From positions 1 through 64,000 of the forward strand of contig MIAR01000021.1 in the NCBI GenBank assembly GCA_001829185.1: a stretch of DNA of 64,000 nt, in the 5' to 3' direction. Below are positions 53,609 through 64,000 of the stretch, piece after piece. The DNA comes from Spirochaetes bacterium GWB1_60_80. GTDB taxonomy: Bacteria; Spirochaetota; Spirochaetia; Treponematales; UBA12059. Each line of letters starts with the position of its first letter. Position 1 is the stretch's first letter. The notes beneath the pieces were generated by a model, which was not told the origin of the DNA, did no database searches, and was given only the letters and a program-made list of their open reading frames with translations. The position numbers and the translations under genes are program-made.

Positions 53609-56596
53609 ATGTCCAGCTCGGTTAAAGCCATAATCAGTTTCCTCCTCGCTGCCCTTCTGGCGGTGGCTTTCGGCGCTCTGGGCTGGTCGGGTCTGTTCGA
53701 CTATATCGAGACTCGCTTTTTCGACCAACGGGTCCGGCGGCAGGTCGATAGCGGCCTGGATGGCTTGGCCGCGGCGGTCGACGACTGGCACGAAGGCAAC
53801 CTGACCGTCTGGCAGGATCTGTTCAACCAGGATTTCCTGCGGCGAGCCTATCTGCCCAATCAGACCGCCGAAGACATTTTTCAGCGCAGCGACCGCTTTG
53901 GGCGCTTGCAGGCCGAGGTGCCGGGCTTTCTGGGCAGCCGCATCCTGGATCAAGACGGCAGCCGCATCCATTTCAGCACCTTCCCGCAGGATATCGCCCG
54001 CTCCGAGGACCTGCGCCTGGTCTACCGCAATTATGGCGAGCCTGGCGACGAGGCCTTCGCGACGTTAACCCTGTCGGCCAATGACCGGCCGCTGGTGGCG
54101 CTGGCACCCGGCCGGCGGGTGTTCATGTATCTGTTTCCCTTCTTCGACAGCTTTGAAGTCTACCGTGGCGTGGCCATCGCCTATGTGTCGTATAACGGGC
54201 TGCTTGAATACCTGGTCGGCCAAAACTATCTGGCCTTGGGCGACGATGTGCGCCAGGCCGGCAGTGGCTTGGTGTTTGGCGTGCCGGCCTGGGTGGATCA
54301 GGTCTTCCTGGAGCGCATCGCCGGCACCTGGCAGACCGGCAGTAACGCCGAGCCGTTGCCGCTAGGGGCCCTCGAAGATAGCGTCGCCTGGTTGCTGTTT
54401 GCCCGTAATAGTCTGACTGGCCCCCTCGGCCGGGTGGTGCCGGAGAGCCTGTTCGCCTTCCCGACCTACCTGCAGTGGCTGTTACTGGCCAGTTTCTTCA
54501 TTACAGTATATTTACTGATTTTCCTGCTGCTCAACTTGCGGCAAGACCAGTTTGCGGTGCTGTCCGCCCGCATCAAGAGGCTGCAGATCCAGCTATTGCA
54601 GGATTACTTCGCTGTCGGCCTGGAGATGGAACCGGCTCGCTGGCGGCGCGAGCTGGAGGCCAAGCGGGCCGAGGTGCGTGACCGTATCCGTCGCTCTTCC
54701 CGCCGCTTGGCCAAGCGGCGTAGCGCCGAAGTCGACGCGCTGATAAACCGGAACTGGGACGAGATAATCGAGATACTCAGTGGCCGCCCGGCCGCTAGCC
54801 TGGCCTTACCGGCCAATACCGCCATCGATATGAACCGGCTCGAGACCATGCTGCGCGAGCTGCTCAGCAAGGGCTCGTTCATGGTTAATGCCAGCCAGGC
54901 TGCCGCGCCAAGCACTGCCAAGGCGGCCGGCTCGCCGCTTGCCCCCAAACCTAGCCACCCGACGGTCAGCCCGGTAGTCAGCCAAATCGCGGAGCCCGTG
55001 CCGCCGGTCGAATTGGACGAACTCGATGCCGTCGAGGAACTGACCGAGCTCGACGAGTCCGGCGAGATATCCGACGTTGTAGACACTACTCCGCCGGTGG
55101 ACGCCGAACTGGAAACGCTGGAAGAGGTCGAGGAACTTTCGGATGTCGAAGAACTCGAGGAAGTCGAGGAACTCGAAGAGATCGAAGCAGCCGAGGAACT
55201 CGCCGAAGCCGGAGCCCTGGAAGAAGCCGAAGAGCTCGCCGAAGCCGAAACGCTGGAAGAAGTCGAGGAACTCGCCGAGGTCGAAACGCTGGAAGCAGTC
55301 GAAGCGGTAGCCGAGGCTGAAGAGCTTGAGGCCTTCGAAGAGGCCGAGGAGCTTGAAGCGCTCGAAGCGCTGGAAGAAACGGCCATCGAGATAGTGGAGG
55401 GCGATACCGACCAGGCTGCCGAGGTATCGGCCGATGGCTTCGACTTAGGCGCAGCCGCCCTTTCCTTGGCTGGCAGCGTCGACGACGATGTTCCGGTCAT
55501 TCCAGAGAGCTTGGGCCTCGAGCTGGTCGAGGACGATGCCATCGGCGACATCGAATCCTACTTGTACGACGGCGCACCTTCCGGCTTGGCTTCTGACGTG
55601 GAAGAACTGGAAGCGCTCGAAGAGCTTGATGAAGTGGAGTCAAGAGCTGGCTTGCCGGCCGAAGAGGCCTCCAGCGCCGAGGGCGCCACACCAACGAAAG
55701 CCCATAGTGTGGCAGTCAGCGATGCCATCGGCAACGTCGTCGAGCATTTCCCCGGTATGGAACCCGCGCTAGCCGCCGTCAACCCCGACGCAGACGGCGC
55801 GGAGCCGGTCGACCTGGATTCCTTCGGGTACACTGGCAGCGCCCGCTTCGAGTTGTCCAATCCGTTGGACGATGCGGCTGGCGATACCGAGATCGATACC
55901 GCTGAAGGCTTGTGGCGTGATGAAGCCTTTCGCAAACGCATCCGCCAGAAATCACTGGAGCAGGGCAAGGCGCAGCGCGAACTGGACGAGATGCTGGACG
56001 CCGTTGAGTTCGAGCTGGAATTGTCCACTCTCGATTTGGGTGTCCTGGAGAACTACCGCGACGAAGAAGGCTTCCTTGAGTTGGACACGGCCGACTTTCC
56101 GCTGGCCGGTGAACAAGCCGTCTTCAGTATGGCCGAGGAAGCAACACTCGCCGAGGGTGCCGGGGCTGAGGACGAGCTGGAAATCCAGATGCTGTCCGAT
56201 GCCGATCGCGAGCGTCTCGAGGAATTGCAGGTTTTGAGTGACGGCAACGAAGATGCGGCCGCCGAAGACGTGTTGGCCTTGCCAGAATTCGTGCCCCAGT
56301 TTACCCGCCACCAGTTGCCAGCCAATTTTACCCGCTTTTACCAGCAATCGTTGGCCGAACTCGAAGCTGTCGGAGACGAGGAGCTTGGTTCGTTGGAGCA
56401 GGTCGACGCGTTTGACGCCACCGGCACCTCGATGTCGTCGGCTACCACGGCGGCTGGGTCGGTTCCGGTCGCGCCTGGCGGCATCGTCGAGACCGAGGAT
56501 GGGTTATTCATCCTGGATCGATCGGCCGTGGATCCGGCCGTCCCGGTGGACAAGGACCTCTTGTCCCTGGCCCGCGACGTGATCGATAAGCCCTGA
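53609..56596 (+). CDS. Membrane protein with extracytoplasmic sensor-like domain and a long Glu-rich cytoplasmic region
   Basis: I do not recognise the family. The 995-residue product has an N-terminal membrane segment, an extracytoplasmic domain of about 250 residues (double-Cache-like spacing, VFMYLFPFFDSFEVYRGVAIAYVSYN), a second membrane segment (about 290-312), a charged coiled coil (about 315-385), and then about 500 residues of acidic, low-complexity sequence built on units like EELEEVEELEEI. The ATG at 53609 has AAAGGGG upstream. It looks like a scaffold or receptor without a known output domain. Confidence 0.7.
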   Translation: MSSSVKAIISFLLAALLAVAFGALGWSGLFDYIETRFFDQRVRRQVDSGLDGLAAAVDDWHEGNLTVWQDLFNQDFLRRAYLPNQTAEDIFQRSDRFGRLQAEVPGFLGSRILDQDGSRIHFSTFPQDIARSEDLRLVYRNYGEPGDEAFATLTLSANDRPLVALAPGRRVFMYLFPFFDSFEVYRGVAIAYVSYNGLLEYLVGQNYLALGDDVRQAGSGLVFGVPAWVDQVFLERIAGTWQTGSNAEPLPLGALEDSVAWLLFARNSLTGPLGRVVPESLFAFPTYLQWLLLASFFITVYLLIFLLLNLRQDQFAVLSARIKRLQIQLLQDYFAVGLEMEPARWRRELEAKRAEVRDRIRRSSRRLAKRRSAEVDALINRNWDEIIEILSGRPAASLALPANTAIDMNRLETMLRELLSKGSFMVNASQAAAPSTAKAAGSPLAPKPSHPTVSPVVSQIAEPVPPVELDELDAVEELTELDESGEISDVVDTTPPVDAELETLEEVEELSDVEELEEVEELEEIEAAEELAEAGALEEAEELAEAETLEEVEELAEVETLEAVEAVAEAEELEAFEEAEELEALEALEETAIEIVEGDTDQAAEVSADGFDLGAAALSLAGSVDDDVPVIPESLGLELVEDDAIGDIESYLYDGAPSGLASDVEELEALEELDEVESRAGLPAEEASSAEGATPTKAHSVAVSDAIGNVVEHFPGMEPALAAVNPDADGAEPVDLDSFGYTGSARFELSNPLDDAAGDTEIDTAEGLWRDEAFRKRIRQKSLEQGKAQRELDEMLDAVEFELELSTLDLGVLENYRDEEGFLELDTADFPLAGEQAVFSMAEEATLAEGAGAEDELEIQMLSDADRERLEELQVLSDGNEDAAAEDVLALPEFVPQFTRHQLPANFTRFYQQSLAELEAVGDEELGSLEQVDAFDATGTSMSSATTAAGSVPVAPGGIVETEDGLFILDRSAVDPAVPVDKDLLSLARDVIDKP

Positions 56597-60525: not shown

Positions 60526-60563
60526 CTGCTGGGTTGCTTGGTCACAGTCGGCACGGCAGCAGG

Positions 60564-60626
60564 CCGCAACCATAAAACCGAGGGGAACCGCCTGGCAGGC
60601 GGTTCCCCTCGGTTTTATGGTTGCGG
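60564..60626. terminator. Long bidirectional terminator between exoA and the tetR-like gene
   Basis: A 29-bp perfect stem (60564-60592 with 60598-60626) with loop TGGCA has AAAA on one side and TTTT on the other, internal to the stem. It can end transcripts from both convergent genes. The stem is much longer than a typical terminator. Confidence 0.8.
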
Positions 60627-60650
60627 GCCGTTGTTGACGGCCCGGCTGAT

Positions 60651-61595
60651 TCAAGCCTTCGGTTTGGTGGTCGGTTTAGCGACGGGTTTGGCGGACGCTG
60701 GCTTGGTTGCTGCCGGTTTAGCGGTAGCGGGCTTGGCAGTTGCTGGCTTGGCGACAGCGGGTTTTACAGCCGCTGGCTTGGTTGCGGCCGGCTTTTTGGC
60801 ATCGGCTTTAGCGGCCGGTTTGGCAGCCGTGGCTTTTATCACTTTCTTGGCCGCTGCGGGAGCCTGGCTGCTCTTGGCCTTAGCGCTTGCCTTGGTCTTG
60901 CCGGCGGGTTTCGCGGCAGGCTTGGTAGCAGGCGCTGTTTTTTCGATCGGCTTGAGCACGACCTTGGATACCAGGCCGGCCTTGCCGAATGCTTGCCTGG
61001 CGCCATTGATTAGCTTGCGGCCTTCCTTGAGCGGGTCGAAACCGTCGATATTGTCGTTCCACGACACCAGTAGGGCGTAGATACCGCCGTAAACCATGAG
61101 TCCGGTAGTCTCAACGTCCACCGTGGCCAGCAGTTGGCCCTTGGCTTTGGCTTCCTTGAGGCATTCGATTACCGAGGCCTTTTCTTTGGCGCGAATTTCT
61201 TCCAGGCGTTTCTTGAGCTTGGGGTATTGGCGGAAAATAGCGTCAGGCTGCGACAGGAGGTAACCGAATTTGCGGTCGGTTTTGAGTGCCTGCATCATTT
61301 GCAGCAAAGCGCTCTCCAGCTTGTCGAGGCCGGTGTATTCGGCTACTTTGTAGTAGGACTGAAACAGCCCAAAGTACAGCTCATATACCGAAAAAAGCGA
61401 CTGGAACACGCCATCCACGCCGTCAAAATGGCGGAAGATGGCCGGTTCGGTTACGCCGGCGTGACCGGCGATATTTTTGAGAGTTGCTGCGCGCGGACCT
61501 TGTTTGCACATGACCTCGGCAGCGGCCTGGAGGAGAAGCGACTTTGCCCTGGAAAAGGACCAGTCTTCCCCAAAAATTGTTGTTTCGTTAGTCAT
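60651..61595 (-). CDS. TetR-family regulator with a histone-H1-like Lys/Ala/Pro tail
   Basis: The N-terminal about 205 residues are a normal TetR protein (SLLLQAAAEVMCKQGPRAATLKNIAGHAGVTEPAIFRHFDGVDGVFQ). The last about 105 residues are almost only Lys, Ala, Pro and Thr in units such as AAKPAG, KPATAKPA and TKPASAKP, like histone H1 tails or bacterial H1-like proteins. The tail is strongly basic, so it should add non-specific DNA binding. It is one reading frame, without a break in the sequence. The leaderless promoter marks the start. Confidence 0.88.
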   Translation of the reverse strand: MTNETTIFGEDWSFSRAKSLLLQAAAEVMCKQGPRAATLKNIAGHAGVTEPAIFRHFDGVDGVFQSLFSVYELYFGLFQSYYKVAEYTGLDKLESALLQMMQALKTDRKFGYLLSQPDAIFRQYPKLKKRLEEIRAKEKASVIECLKEAKAKGQLLATVDVETTGLMVYGGIYALLVSWNDNIDGFDPLKEGRKLINGARQAFGKAGLVSKVVLKPIEKTAPATKPAAKPAGKTKASAKAKSSQAPAAAKKVIKATAAKPAAKADAKKPAATKPAAVKPAVAKPATAKPATAKPAATKPASAKPVAKPTTKPKA

Positions 61596-61601
61596 GGAAC
61601 G

Positions 61602-61630
61602 ATTATAAACAATTTTTTATCATTTGAAAA
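61602..61630 (-). promoter_or_regulatory. Leaderless-type promoter of the tetR-like gene
   Basis: Minus strand: TTTTCA (61630-61625), 17 bp, TATAAT (61607-61602), 6 bp, ATG at 61595. No Shine-Dalgarno sequence. Confidence 0.75.
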
Positions 61631-62067
61631 GCTCGATTCTGCAAAATTCGCCGAAATACGGCGTATTTATAGGATTTTTACAGTATTAGTTAACTGCTAA
61701 TATAACTTGTTGTACTTGTTTCTTTACAATTATATGTTATTCGCTGTTGCTGCCTGGTTTTTGCAAGGTGGCAAAATCAAAGTTTTGCGTTTTTTGGCTT
61801 TATCAGAACTGGCATAGTGGTAAATTTGACGTGCCGGTGCGCACGGGAACGAGGACCAGGTTGACTACACTAGGCCGGCGGTCCGCTTAAGACTCAGCGG
61901 GTAGGCCGCTGGCATTAGTAAAAACCGTCTTGGGTACTTAGTTTACAAGGCCTTTTTCAGACTGTCAGGCCGCTTTTCGTTTTAAAAAACGAACTTTTTA
62001 CCTATAAAGCTGAAGCGCTTGGCTAGTTAGGCAGCAAAATTGCTTGACAAAAGCTGGATTGACGGTT
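61631..62067. other. AT-rich intergenic region without a gene; possible sRNA
   Basis: About 440 bp without a credible ORF. A terminator-like structure lies at 61976-61993 (TTCGTTTT-AA-AAAACGAA then CTTTTTA), and CATAGT near 61814 could be a -10 box. A transcript of about 170 bases would fit between them. A repeat-like TTTTGC-GCAAAA pair lies near 61759-61776. This is weak evidence. Confidence 0.3.
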
Positions 62068-62130
62068 AATTTGATAAAACGTTTCAAATTTTGCATGGAT
62101 TGTTTCACAACAAGAAACGAGAGTATATGA
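62044..62130 (+). promoter_or_regulatory. iclR promoter region, operator candidate and overlapping leader peptide
   Basis: TTGACA (62044-62049) and TTGACG (62059-62064) are -35 candidates. An inverted repeat AATTTGA...TCAAATT (62068-62090) covers the likely -10 region and may be the IclR operator. An 11-codon ORF (ATG 62095, MDCFTTRNESI) ends with TGA at 62128-62130, overlapping the iclR ATG by two bases, so translation may be coupled. Confidence 0.45.
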
Positions 62131-62957
62131 GCGAATCGGCATTGAAGGCTTTTGAATTATTATTCTTTTTGGCAAAATCGGGCCATTTATCCCTGGCTAG
62201 GCTGGCCCGGGAAACCGGTTGGGACAAGGCAACCGCCCTGCGCTATTTGACCGCCATGGAGAAACGCGGCGTCGTGGAGCGCCAGGATGGTGACTGGGCC
62301 TTGGGGCTGGCCCTGGTCGAGCTGGCCAGTCGCGTGCCGGTATCCCAGAATATCGCCTCGCGCGCTGAGCCGATCCTCAAAGAACTGGCCCTGGGCGTGG
62401 ATGAAACGGCCAGTCTCTCTGCCCAGGTGGGTTCCGACGTCATGTACGTGGCTAAGGCCGAAGGCAAGCGAGCCTTGCGCCTGCGCTTCAACTCCGGCGA
62501 CCGGCTGCCGCTCTACTGTACCGCCGCCGGTAAAAGCATCTTGTCGCGCATGACGGCGTCAATGCGCTCGCAATATCTGGCCGACGCCCAGCTGGTGCCG
62601 GTAGCCCCCCGGACCATCACCGACCCGCACCGTCTGGCGGTGGAAATAGACGAGACCATCCGCCGTGGCTGGGCGGTCGACGACGAGGAGCTGGAACCGG
62701 GCCTGGTCTGTTACGCCATGCCGCTGGATCTGCCGCGCTACGGCTTTACCGGCGCTGTCAGCGTTTCCGGCCCTTCCGGGCGCATGCACCAGGCCCGTGA
62801 CGAGGTGCTGGCCGCCCTGCGTTGGGCCATCACGCGCCTGCAAAACGAACTGGGCGGCAGCGGTCCGGATTATGAAGAATCTTCCATATTTGGTCCGGGG
62901 CGCGGCGGCTTCAAGAATGCTGACTGGCACCGTCCTGGATCGGAGACTTACGAATAA
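62127..62957 (+). CDS. IclR-family transcriptional regulator
   Basis: The 276-residue protein has the winged helix-turn-helix (KAFELLFFLAKSGHLSLARLARETGWDKATALRYLTAMEKRGVVERQDGDWALG) and the IclR effector domain (VSQNIASRAEPILKELALGVDETASLSAQVGSDVMYV; LPLYCTAAGKSIL; YGFTGAVSVSGPSGRM). I prefer ATG 62127 (MSESAL). It may control the downstream panB-like gene; the TTTCAT-TAG-ATGAAA palindrome between them is a candidate site. Confidence 0.92.
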   Translation: MSESALKAFELLFFLAKSGHLSLARLARETGWDKATALRYLTAMEKRGVVERQDGDWALGLALVELASRVPVSQNIASRAEPILKELALGVDETASLSAQVGSDVMYVAKAEGKRALRLRFNSGDRLPLYCTAAGKSILSRMTASMRSQYLADAQLVPVAPRTITDPHRLAVEIDETIRRGWAVDDEELEPGLVCYAMPLDLPRYGFTGAVSVSGPSGRMHQARDEVLAALRWAITRLQNELGGSGPDYEESSIFGPGRGGFKNADWHRPGSETYE

Positions 62958-63105: not shown

Positions 63106-63192
63106 GTATCCTTGTACCGGCTGGGGGCAGCGTTCCTGGATCCGGCTGAACATTCCCCGGATACACCGGGAGACAAAATCTAAGGAGAAGTT

Positions 63193-64000
63193 ATGGCCGA
63201 GACACGCAAGAAAATGACCATGCCAGGCTTGTTCAAGAAAGTAGCCGAGGGTAAACCGCTCAGCTGGATGACCTGTTATGATTATCCTACCGCCGTCATG
63301 CAGGATCAGGCCGGCATGGACATGATCCTGGTCGGTGACAGCCTTGGCATGACCATGTTGGGCTACGACAGCACCCTGCCGGTAACCATGGACGACATGA
63401 TTCGGCATACCGCCGCCGTCCGGCGGGGATCTCCCAATTCCTGGCTGGTTGGCGACATGCCTTACATGAGCTATCAGCCGTCGGTCGAGACAGCCATCCG
63501 CAATGCCGGCCGCTTCATGGCCGAAACTGGCTGCGACTCCATCAAGCTGGAAGGCGGCATCGAAATGGCCGACCGGATCGCCGGTATCGTCCGCTCCGGC
63601 ATCCCGGCCATCGGCCACCTCGGCCTGACGCCGCAGAGTGTCAGTGCCCTGGGTGGATTCCGCCTGCAGGGCAAGGGCGCCGCCCAAGCCAAGAAAATTG
63701 TCGACGATGCCAAGGCCCTCGAAGAGGCCGGCGCCTTCTGCATTCTGCTGGAACTGATTCCGGATCGCCTATGCAAGCTCATCACCGAACGCGCGAAAGG
63801 TTGTATCATCATGAGCCTGGGTTCCGGGCTGGACGCGCATGGTCAATTGCTGATCTACCATGACGCCTTTGCCTTGTACCCCAAATTCAAACCGCGGATG
63901 GCCAGGGTGTTTGCCGACGCCGGCAAGGTTATCCAGGAAGGCCTGAATGGCTACGTCAAGGAAGTCGGCGAGAAAACCTTCCCCAGCCAGGAAAACTGGT
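63193..64000 (+). CDS. panB: 3-methyl-2-oxobutanoate hydroxymethyltransferase, 3' end outside the window
   Basis: PanB makes ketopantoate from ketoisovalerate with methylenetetrahydrofolate, in coenzyme A synthesis. The visible 269 residues contain MTCYDYPTAVMQDQAGMDMILVGDSLGMTMLGYDSTLPVTMDDMI (split motifs), DMPYMSYQPS, VKLEGG-type IKLEGG, IPAIGHLGLTPQS and ELIPDRL. AAGGAG lies 5 bases before the ATG. No other pantothenate gene is visible, and an IclR regulator sits next to it, so a paralogue acting in another pathway is possible. Confidence 0.9.
   Translation, partial: MAETRKKMTMPGLFKKVAEGKPLSWMTCYDYPTAVMQDQAGMDMILVGDSLGMTMLGYDSTLPVTMDDMIRHTAAVRRGSPNSWLVGDMPYMSYQPSVETAIRNAGRFMAETGCDSIKLEGGIEMADRIAGIVRSGIPAIGHLGLTPQSVSALGGFRLQGKGAAQAKKIVDDAKALEEAGAFCILLELIPDRLCKLITERAKGCIIMSLGSGLDAHGQLLIYHDAFALYPKFKPRMARVFADAGKVIQEGLNGYVKEVGEKTFPSQENW

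Follow-up and report, generated by a model that had tools for sequence, protein, structure and literature searches.

A TetR-family regulator is expected to recognise a specific operator, and the gene studied here raises the question of what such a protein might do with a long C-terminal tail rich in lysine, alanine and proline (K/A/P). The earlier note on this DNA had described it as a complete TetR regulator with an H1-like tail and had proposed that it links specific repression with chromosome compaction. In the following, we examine the gene and its surroundings in the window, i.e. the whole 64,000-nucleotide stretch of DNA that was analysed, and follow the tail through related genomes and onto other proteins.

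The TetR core and its tail

The gene is complete, and the coordinates given for it proved exact. It comprises the following parts:

60651..61595, minus strand: coding sequence of the TetR-family regulator, 314 amino acids, with ATG at 61595 and TGA at 60653-60651
60987..61595, minus strand: TetR core, residues 1-203, with the HTH and an all-helical C-terminal domain (AlphaFold, Foldseek)
61419..61499, minus strand: recognition region, residues 33-59, GPRxATLKNIAxxAGVTEPAIFRHFDG, the best-conserved part among orthologs
60654..60986, minus strand: K/A/P-rich tail, residues 204-314, net charge +25, predicted to be disordered
60654..60797, minus strand: regular part of the tail, residues 267-314, with KP mostly at five-residue spacing

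In Pfam, TetR_N (PF00440) matches residues 21-65 with E=6.1e-10 and a score of 39.2 bits, well above the cut-off of 24. No TetR C-terminal family of Pfam exceeds its cut-off for the 314-residue protein, and the same applies to the NCBIfam models of named TetR subfamilies (ScbR, MtrR, AcrR, SlmA, FadR and others), where the best scores are 48.4 bits for ScbR (cut-off 150) and 43.8 bits for MtrR (cut-off 280). The AlphaFold model, computed from an input alignment of 23 rows, has an all-helical core with a pLDDT of at least 90 for 189 residues. With this core, Foldseek finds FadR, KstR2, AcrR and SmeT as the nearest structures (E-values down to 3.1e-7), a placement by fold and not by ligand. The specific operator has probably been kept among the orthologs described below, because their recognition region is nearly invariant.

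The 111 residues of the tail include 27 lysines (24%), 36 alanines (32%), 16 prolines (14%) and 10 threonines, but no arginine and just one aspartate and one glutamate. KP occurs 14 times, KPA ten times and KPAA five times. Nine lysine pairs in the last 62 residues are spaced five apart, against a mean of 3.2 in shuffled sequences, and none of 5000 shuffles reached this number. The predicted disorder is reflected in the AlphaFold model, where ten-residue blocks of the tail, starting at about residue 221, have pLDDT values of 42-58, compared with values above 90 for most of the core. Such a lysine-rich tail is not a product of chance, since only one of the 268 open frames in the window (stop-to-stop, at least 100 amino acids, all six frames), that of the TetR protein, contains a 100-residue stretch with at least 15 lysines; the best 100-residue stretch of this frame consists of K, A and P to 76%.

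This composition agrees with the earlier description of the tail as H1-like. The term is apt in the sense of AlgP and PhaF, as the tail, like those of this type, is a K/A/P-rich C-terminal domain that contains units of the KPAA type and is predicted to be disordered, but the term does not refer to linker histone H1 proper. No linker-histone family is found among the seven Pfam matches of the protein at E ≤ 1, and S/TPKK, a motif of linker histone H1 tails, does not occur in the tail.

The earlier note had held that its reading would fall if the tail arose from a sequencing or assembly artefact in the repeat, and the source genome is indeed a draft of 59 contigs. The repeat units, however, differ in their codons: no two of the five AKPA units are spelled alike, and the ten KPA units show nine spellings. 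Likewise, Tandem Repeats Finder detects just one weak array in the tail at its lowest threshold (3.7 copies, 68% matches), and GC3 is 0.61 in the tail versus 0.67 in the core. To judge from the sequence, the AKPA repeat is maintained at the protein level, since its units all differ in codons. Furthermore, the open frame continues to a stop codon that is followed by a strong hairpin, as expected of a gene end, and K/A/P tails are also present in eight other orthologs, which come from separate assemblies. We regard an artefact as a very unlikely origin of the tail, to the point of being negligible.

Tail length among the orthologs

Among the TetR proteins of the source genome the tail is exceptional, in line with the earlier suggestion that it is unusual: TetR_N is matched 15 times there, in 14 open frames, and a single one of these frames carries it. 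In 38 of 58 near genomes, the whole protein found matches at E ≤ 0.001, many of which are other TetR proteins to judge by their weak scores. When a profile of 24 cores was run (E ≤ 1e-40) against 390 genomes sampled from the order, 27 of them yielded one ortholog each, with 16 in the family of the window and 11 in one other family. A sample of 392 genomes from the phylum contained 16 with a match at E ≤ 1e-25, namely 10 with known orthologs and 6 with weaker matches in open frames of 197-211 amino acids. G001, the sole other genome of the window's genus returned by these searches, is without an ortholog.

Tail lengths were determined for the 26 orthologs with a complete C-terminus, with the profile position of residue 203 as the start of the tail; L121, cut by a contig end, was excluded. 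The earlier note had proposed a search for further TetR proteins with such tails and a comparison of tail lengths, and both were productive among these relatives, whose tails range from 2 to 118 residues. Nine orthologs have long K/A/P tails (71-118 residues, net +17 to +28), eight have short tails (18-25 residues) and nine are near-tailless (2-9 residues). Seven of the short tails are basic, with a net charge of +4 to +8 and K or R within the last two residues, and one is neutral. The nine long tails keep their composition and charge, with 1-8 acidic residues each, and vary in length and order.

In the tree built from the core sequences, the pattern of long tails takes five changes, four of which are forced by well-supported branches (L121 excluded; L116 lies on a long branch, so that its position is unsure). 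The tree thus indicates that long tails came or went repeatedly among the orthologs, where each change may be a gain or a loss. A single clade of long tails is rejected (p-AU 9.9e-9), yet the long tails are still somewhat clustered, given that shuffled patterns require 7.6 changes on average and only 18 of 500 required as few as the observed five.

Such a history might point to a nearly neutral, low-complexity tail of little function, produced by slippage and the expansion of repeats where the C-terminus tolerates them. The at least four to five gains or losses are in line with this idea, as are the existence of tailless orthologs and the tail of G022, which, in comparison with its short-tailed relative G021, resembles an expansion of KPA units between common flanks. 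It does not explain well, however, why nine tails of few acidic residues have kept their composition and positive charge, or why the amino-acid period is kept while the codons differ between units. Moreover, dN is lower than dS in the one close pair of long-tailed orthologs, G417 and G041, not only in the core (dN 0.156, dS 1.07) but also in the tail (dN 0.402, dS 1.42). Identity in this pair falls from 0.76 for the core to 0.49 for the tail. The tail is looser than the core but apparently constrained, although a dS above 1 makes this a rough estimate for one pair. We therefore consider a largely neutral tail unlikely.

The locus and other carriers of K/A/P stretches

The surroundings of the gene bear on how it is expressed and on what it might control. 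Four features are of relevance:

61625..61630, minus strand: −35-like element TTTTCA, 17 bases from TATAAT
61602..61607, minus strand: −10-like element TATAAT, six bases before the ATG
60557..60633, no strand assigned: inverted repeat directly after the TetR stop, with arms of 38 nucleotides that are 92% complementary and 1 nucleotide apart
62091..62957, plus strand: divergent IclR-family gene (Pfam IclR on its relative in L099)

When 26 of the 27 TetR orthologs are stacked on their ATG (L117 is left out by the start rule), position −35 is T in 20 of the sequences, while 17 have T at −12 and 19 have A at −11. Near the −35 place, by eye, 12 of the 26 have CTTCAC or CTTTTC and about seven more CTTCTC or CTTCCC. 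Together with the spacing of TTTTCA and TATAAT in the window, these positions suggest a promoter that ends just before the ATG and a possible leaderless transcript. At the other end, the minus-strand RNA of the inverted repeat has a computed fold of −73.5 kcal/mol (z −13), and its 13-base core has no further exact copy in the window. This repeat is probably a two-way terminator, very strong for one, between the TetR gene and a convergent gene, which we take to be exonuclease III-like. Elsewhere in the window, positions 55121-55367 hold a tandem repeat array with periods of 9, 18, 27, 36 and 72, whose units would be Glu-rich if coding.

An IclR-family gene lies near TetR in 11 of the 27 ortholog loci. 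In eight loci (L097-L100, L102, L103, L113 and L120), a branched-chain-type ABC transporter cluster of a binding protein, two permeases and an ATPase (named with Pfam on L099 only) directly precedes TetR, with IclR at its far end in seven; in L100, the contig ends first. The window is without a transporter between IclR and TetR (61596-62090), and the single match to the binding protein in the source genome at E ≤ 1e-20 (39% identical) is located elsewhere. In the other family, genes upstream of TetR belong to the PF00144 hydrolase family in 10 loci and to the type III glutamine synthetase family in seven, both named on L110. These gene neighbourhoods hint at a role in amino-acid or nitrogen control. 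They are not uniform, however, and we therefore claim no target. A palindrome search of 23 upstream regions, which left out L111, L112 and L115 (unsure starts or near-identity) as well as L117, yielded no credible operator. The best shared palindrome, ATTTTT-N8-AAAAAT, occurs in nine of the 23 regions versus at most five in 12 crude shuffles of 2-base blocks; being AT-rich, it was set aside as an operator.

To what extent the tail is specific to TetR is a separate matter. Tail-based protein searches of the source genome (G000) returned no other real carrier, just three weak matches whose frames are, by eye, short or overlap with other ORFs. These searches are nearly blind, as they recovered two of the nine long TetR tails (G000 and G022); a match in G421 is located elsewhere in that genome and contains stops. 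DNA patterns for K-(A/P) repeats, by contrast, gave three further carriers in the source genome, namely an HU-family protein, topoisomerase I (TopA) and pyruvate phosphate dikinase, and the notion that the tail is confined to TetR there was dropped. One of the two patterns hit 42 sites, compared with 10 for a control pattern, and 22 of the 42 fall within the four carriers (14 in dikinase, six in HU and one each in TetR and TopA); among the other 20, we read 13 and found no comparable tail. The other pattern covered 14 of the 27 genomes with an ortholog, and both are narrower than a full proteome scan.

The dikinase (L209:194-3208, contig C4) matches NCBIfam TIGR01828 over residues 5-891 of 1004 (1299 bits, cut-off 843) and ends in a K/A/P tail of 113 residues with a 24-bp repeat. 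A survey of 23 genomes from the family found 27 dikinase-like loci in 20 of them: seven are tailed (L182-L188, source genome included), 12 are tailless (L190-L201) and eight were not readable by the end motif. The tailed enzymes are 72-100% identical to the query and differ in tail length. The tailless ones may represent another version of the enzyme instead of losses or pre-gain states, because they are only 48-54% identical to it. In the HU-family protein (L150:1330-1992, contig C59 near 63126-63268), a KPAA-rich stretch forms an N-terminal extension, comparable to that of an HU-family protein in G006 (L134), and topoisomerase I likewise has a K/A/P-rich N-terminal extension (L170:1387-3018, contig C23 near 42621). 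Finally, G025, whose TetR ortholog is tailless, encodes a MarR-family regulator that ends, at its C-terminus, in a long K/A/P tail (L146:1398-2117). The same genome has an open frame of 557 residues without a Pfam match and with a K/A/P-rich C-terminal end (L128:1-1671).

Since a metabolic enzyme carries a similar tail, such tails should not be called histone-like as a matter of course, and the proposed link to chromosome compaction is weakened. That proposal, a TetR head on a nucleoid protein that joins specific repression and compaction, might be supported by the likeness of the tail to bacterial H1-like tails and by the reported condensation of DNA by Hc1 and Hc2 of Chlamydia (PMC2848022, as far as its available text goes). 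However, the core occurs once per genome at strong match, nine of the 26 orthologs do without the tail, and the source genome has such stretches on HU and TopA, which are known to act in DNA packing or topology. A compaction role is thus highly improbable in our view.

The dikinase tail instead strengthens the main rival to a DNA anchor, according to which the tail is a general polycationic localisation tag that directs any carrier to a store of polyanions (polyphosphate granules, RNA or the nucleoid surface, for instance). In the TetR protein, the tag could either keep the regulator sequestered or make it responsive to the phosphate or starvation state. The presence of K/A/P stretches on dikinase in seven genomes, on HU and on TopA favours a tag, and so does the observation, from the accessible part of the source, that the spacing of polyphosphate granules is disturbed once the KPAA-bearing C-terminus of AlgP is removed (PMC9239181). 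Yet four of the five carriers of identified family (TetR, HU, TopA and MarR, but not dikinase) are DNA-binding. A localisation tag seems to us the less likely explanation, albeit one to be taken seriously. Rather unlikely, finally, is the broader possibility that the K/A/P tails of these spirochaetes serve as an interchangeable address label. Proteins as unrelated as a specific repressor, HU, topoisomerase I, a MarR regulator and dikinase would each have gained it independently, and it would place them all on a common polyanionic scaffold, such as the nucleoid or polyphosphate. If true, this would mean that a specific repressor and central metabolism are coupled to the state of this scaffold.

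The tail as a possible DNA anchor, and known systems

Considering these points, we lean towards the view that the protein is a specific repressor with an optional anchor to DNA, or another polyanion. Here, the protein would be a one-component repressor whose folded TetR dimer recognises a specific operator, while the polycationic tail on each subunit would make sequence-independent contacts with the DNA backbone or some other polyanion. As a flexible anchor, the tail could raise the local affinity for DNA, lengthen the residence near the operator and aid the search by hopping among DNA segments; it would not compact the chromosome. The combination of a TetR core with a disordered tail, the near-invariant recognition region, the conserved composition and charge of the nine long tails, the apparent constraint on the tail of G417 and G041, the basic nature of seven of the eight short tails with their terminal K or R, and the K/A/P stretches on HU and TopA of the source genome are all consistent with an anchor. 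Its weak points are that nine of 26 orthologs manage without a tail, that the dikinase tails in seven genomes need not serve DNA, that the constraint estimate is a rough one from a single pair, and that no credible operator emerged from the upstream regions. In any case, this orthologous repressor offers a natural series of tails from 2 to 118 residues, and such natural proteins allow one to measure how a charged, disordered tail affects the finding and holding of an operator by a bacterial repressor.

In fold and HTH family (PF00440), the core is similar to FadR, KstR2, AcrR and SmeT, none of which has such a tail to our knowledge. A literature search, largely without subscription journals, returned no TetR protein with a K/A/P tail and no pyruvate phosphate dikinase with one. 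In the literature searched, the combination of a TetR head and a K/A/P tail thus appears undescribed; its parts and their likely action are known. We read the tail as a DNA anchor because the stretches functionally closest to it, those of AlgP, PhaF, Hc2 and actinobacterial TopA, bind DNA and that of TopA slows its loss from DNA, according to the accessible portions of the respective sources, to which the following comparisons also refer.

AlgP of Pseudomonas aeruginosa is similar in that a predicted disordered K/A/P tail, built of KPAA and variants, lies C-terminal to a predicted helical domain, and both KPAA peptides and a fragment of the C-terminus bind DNA (PMC9239181). However, its N-terminal domain of 124 residues is not described as TetR in the accessible text, and its 154-residue repeat block consists mainly of four-residue units, whereas the spacing in the TetR tail is mainly five. 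The phasin PhaF of Pseudomonas putida likewise joins an AlgP-like DNA-binding C-terminal domain, which is unfolded without DNA (PMC3574117), to a domain of another function, but its N-terminal part binds PHA and it is not a sequence-specific regulator. Hc2/HctB of Chlamydia and BpH1 of Bordetella resemble the tail in their lysine-rich pentamers, which carry two basic residues each in Hc2, and in their variable length; unlike the TetR protein, they are described as independent histone-like proteins, without a TetR head. Lastly, actinobacterial topoisomerase I has lysine-rich, H1-resembling repeats on a protein that acts on DNA. These repeats have been shown to slow its loss from DNA, as the Streptomyces protein leaves DNA more easily without them (PMC7398561); it differs in being an enzyme and not a repressor.
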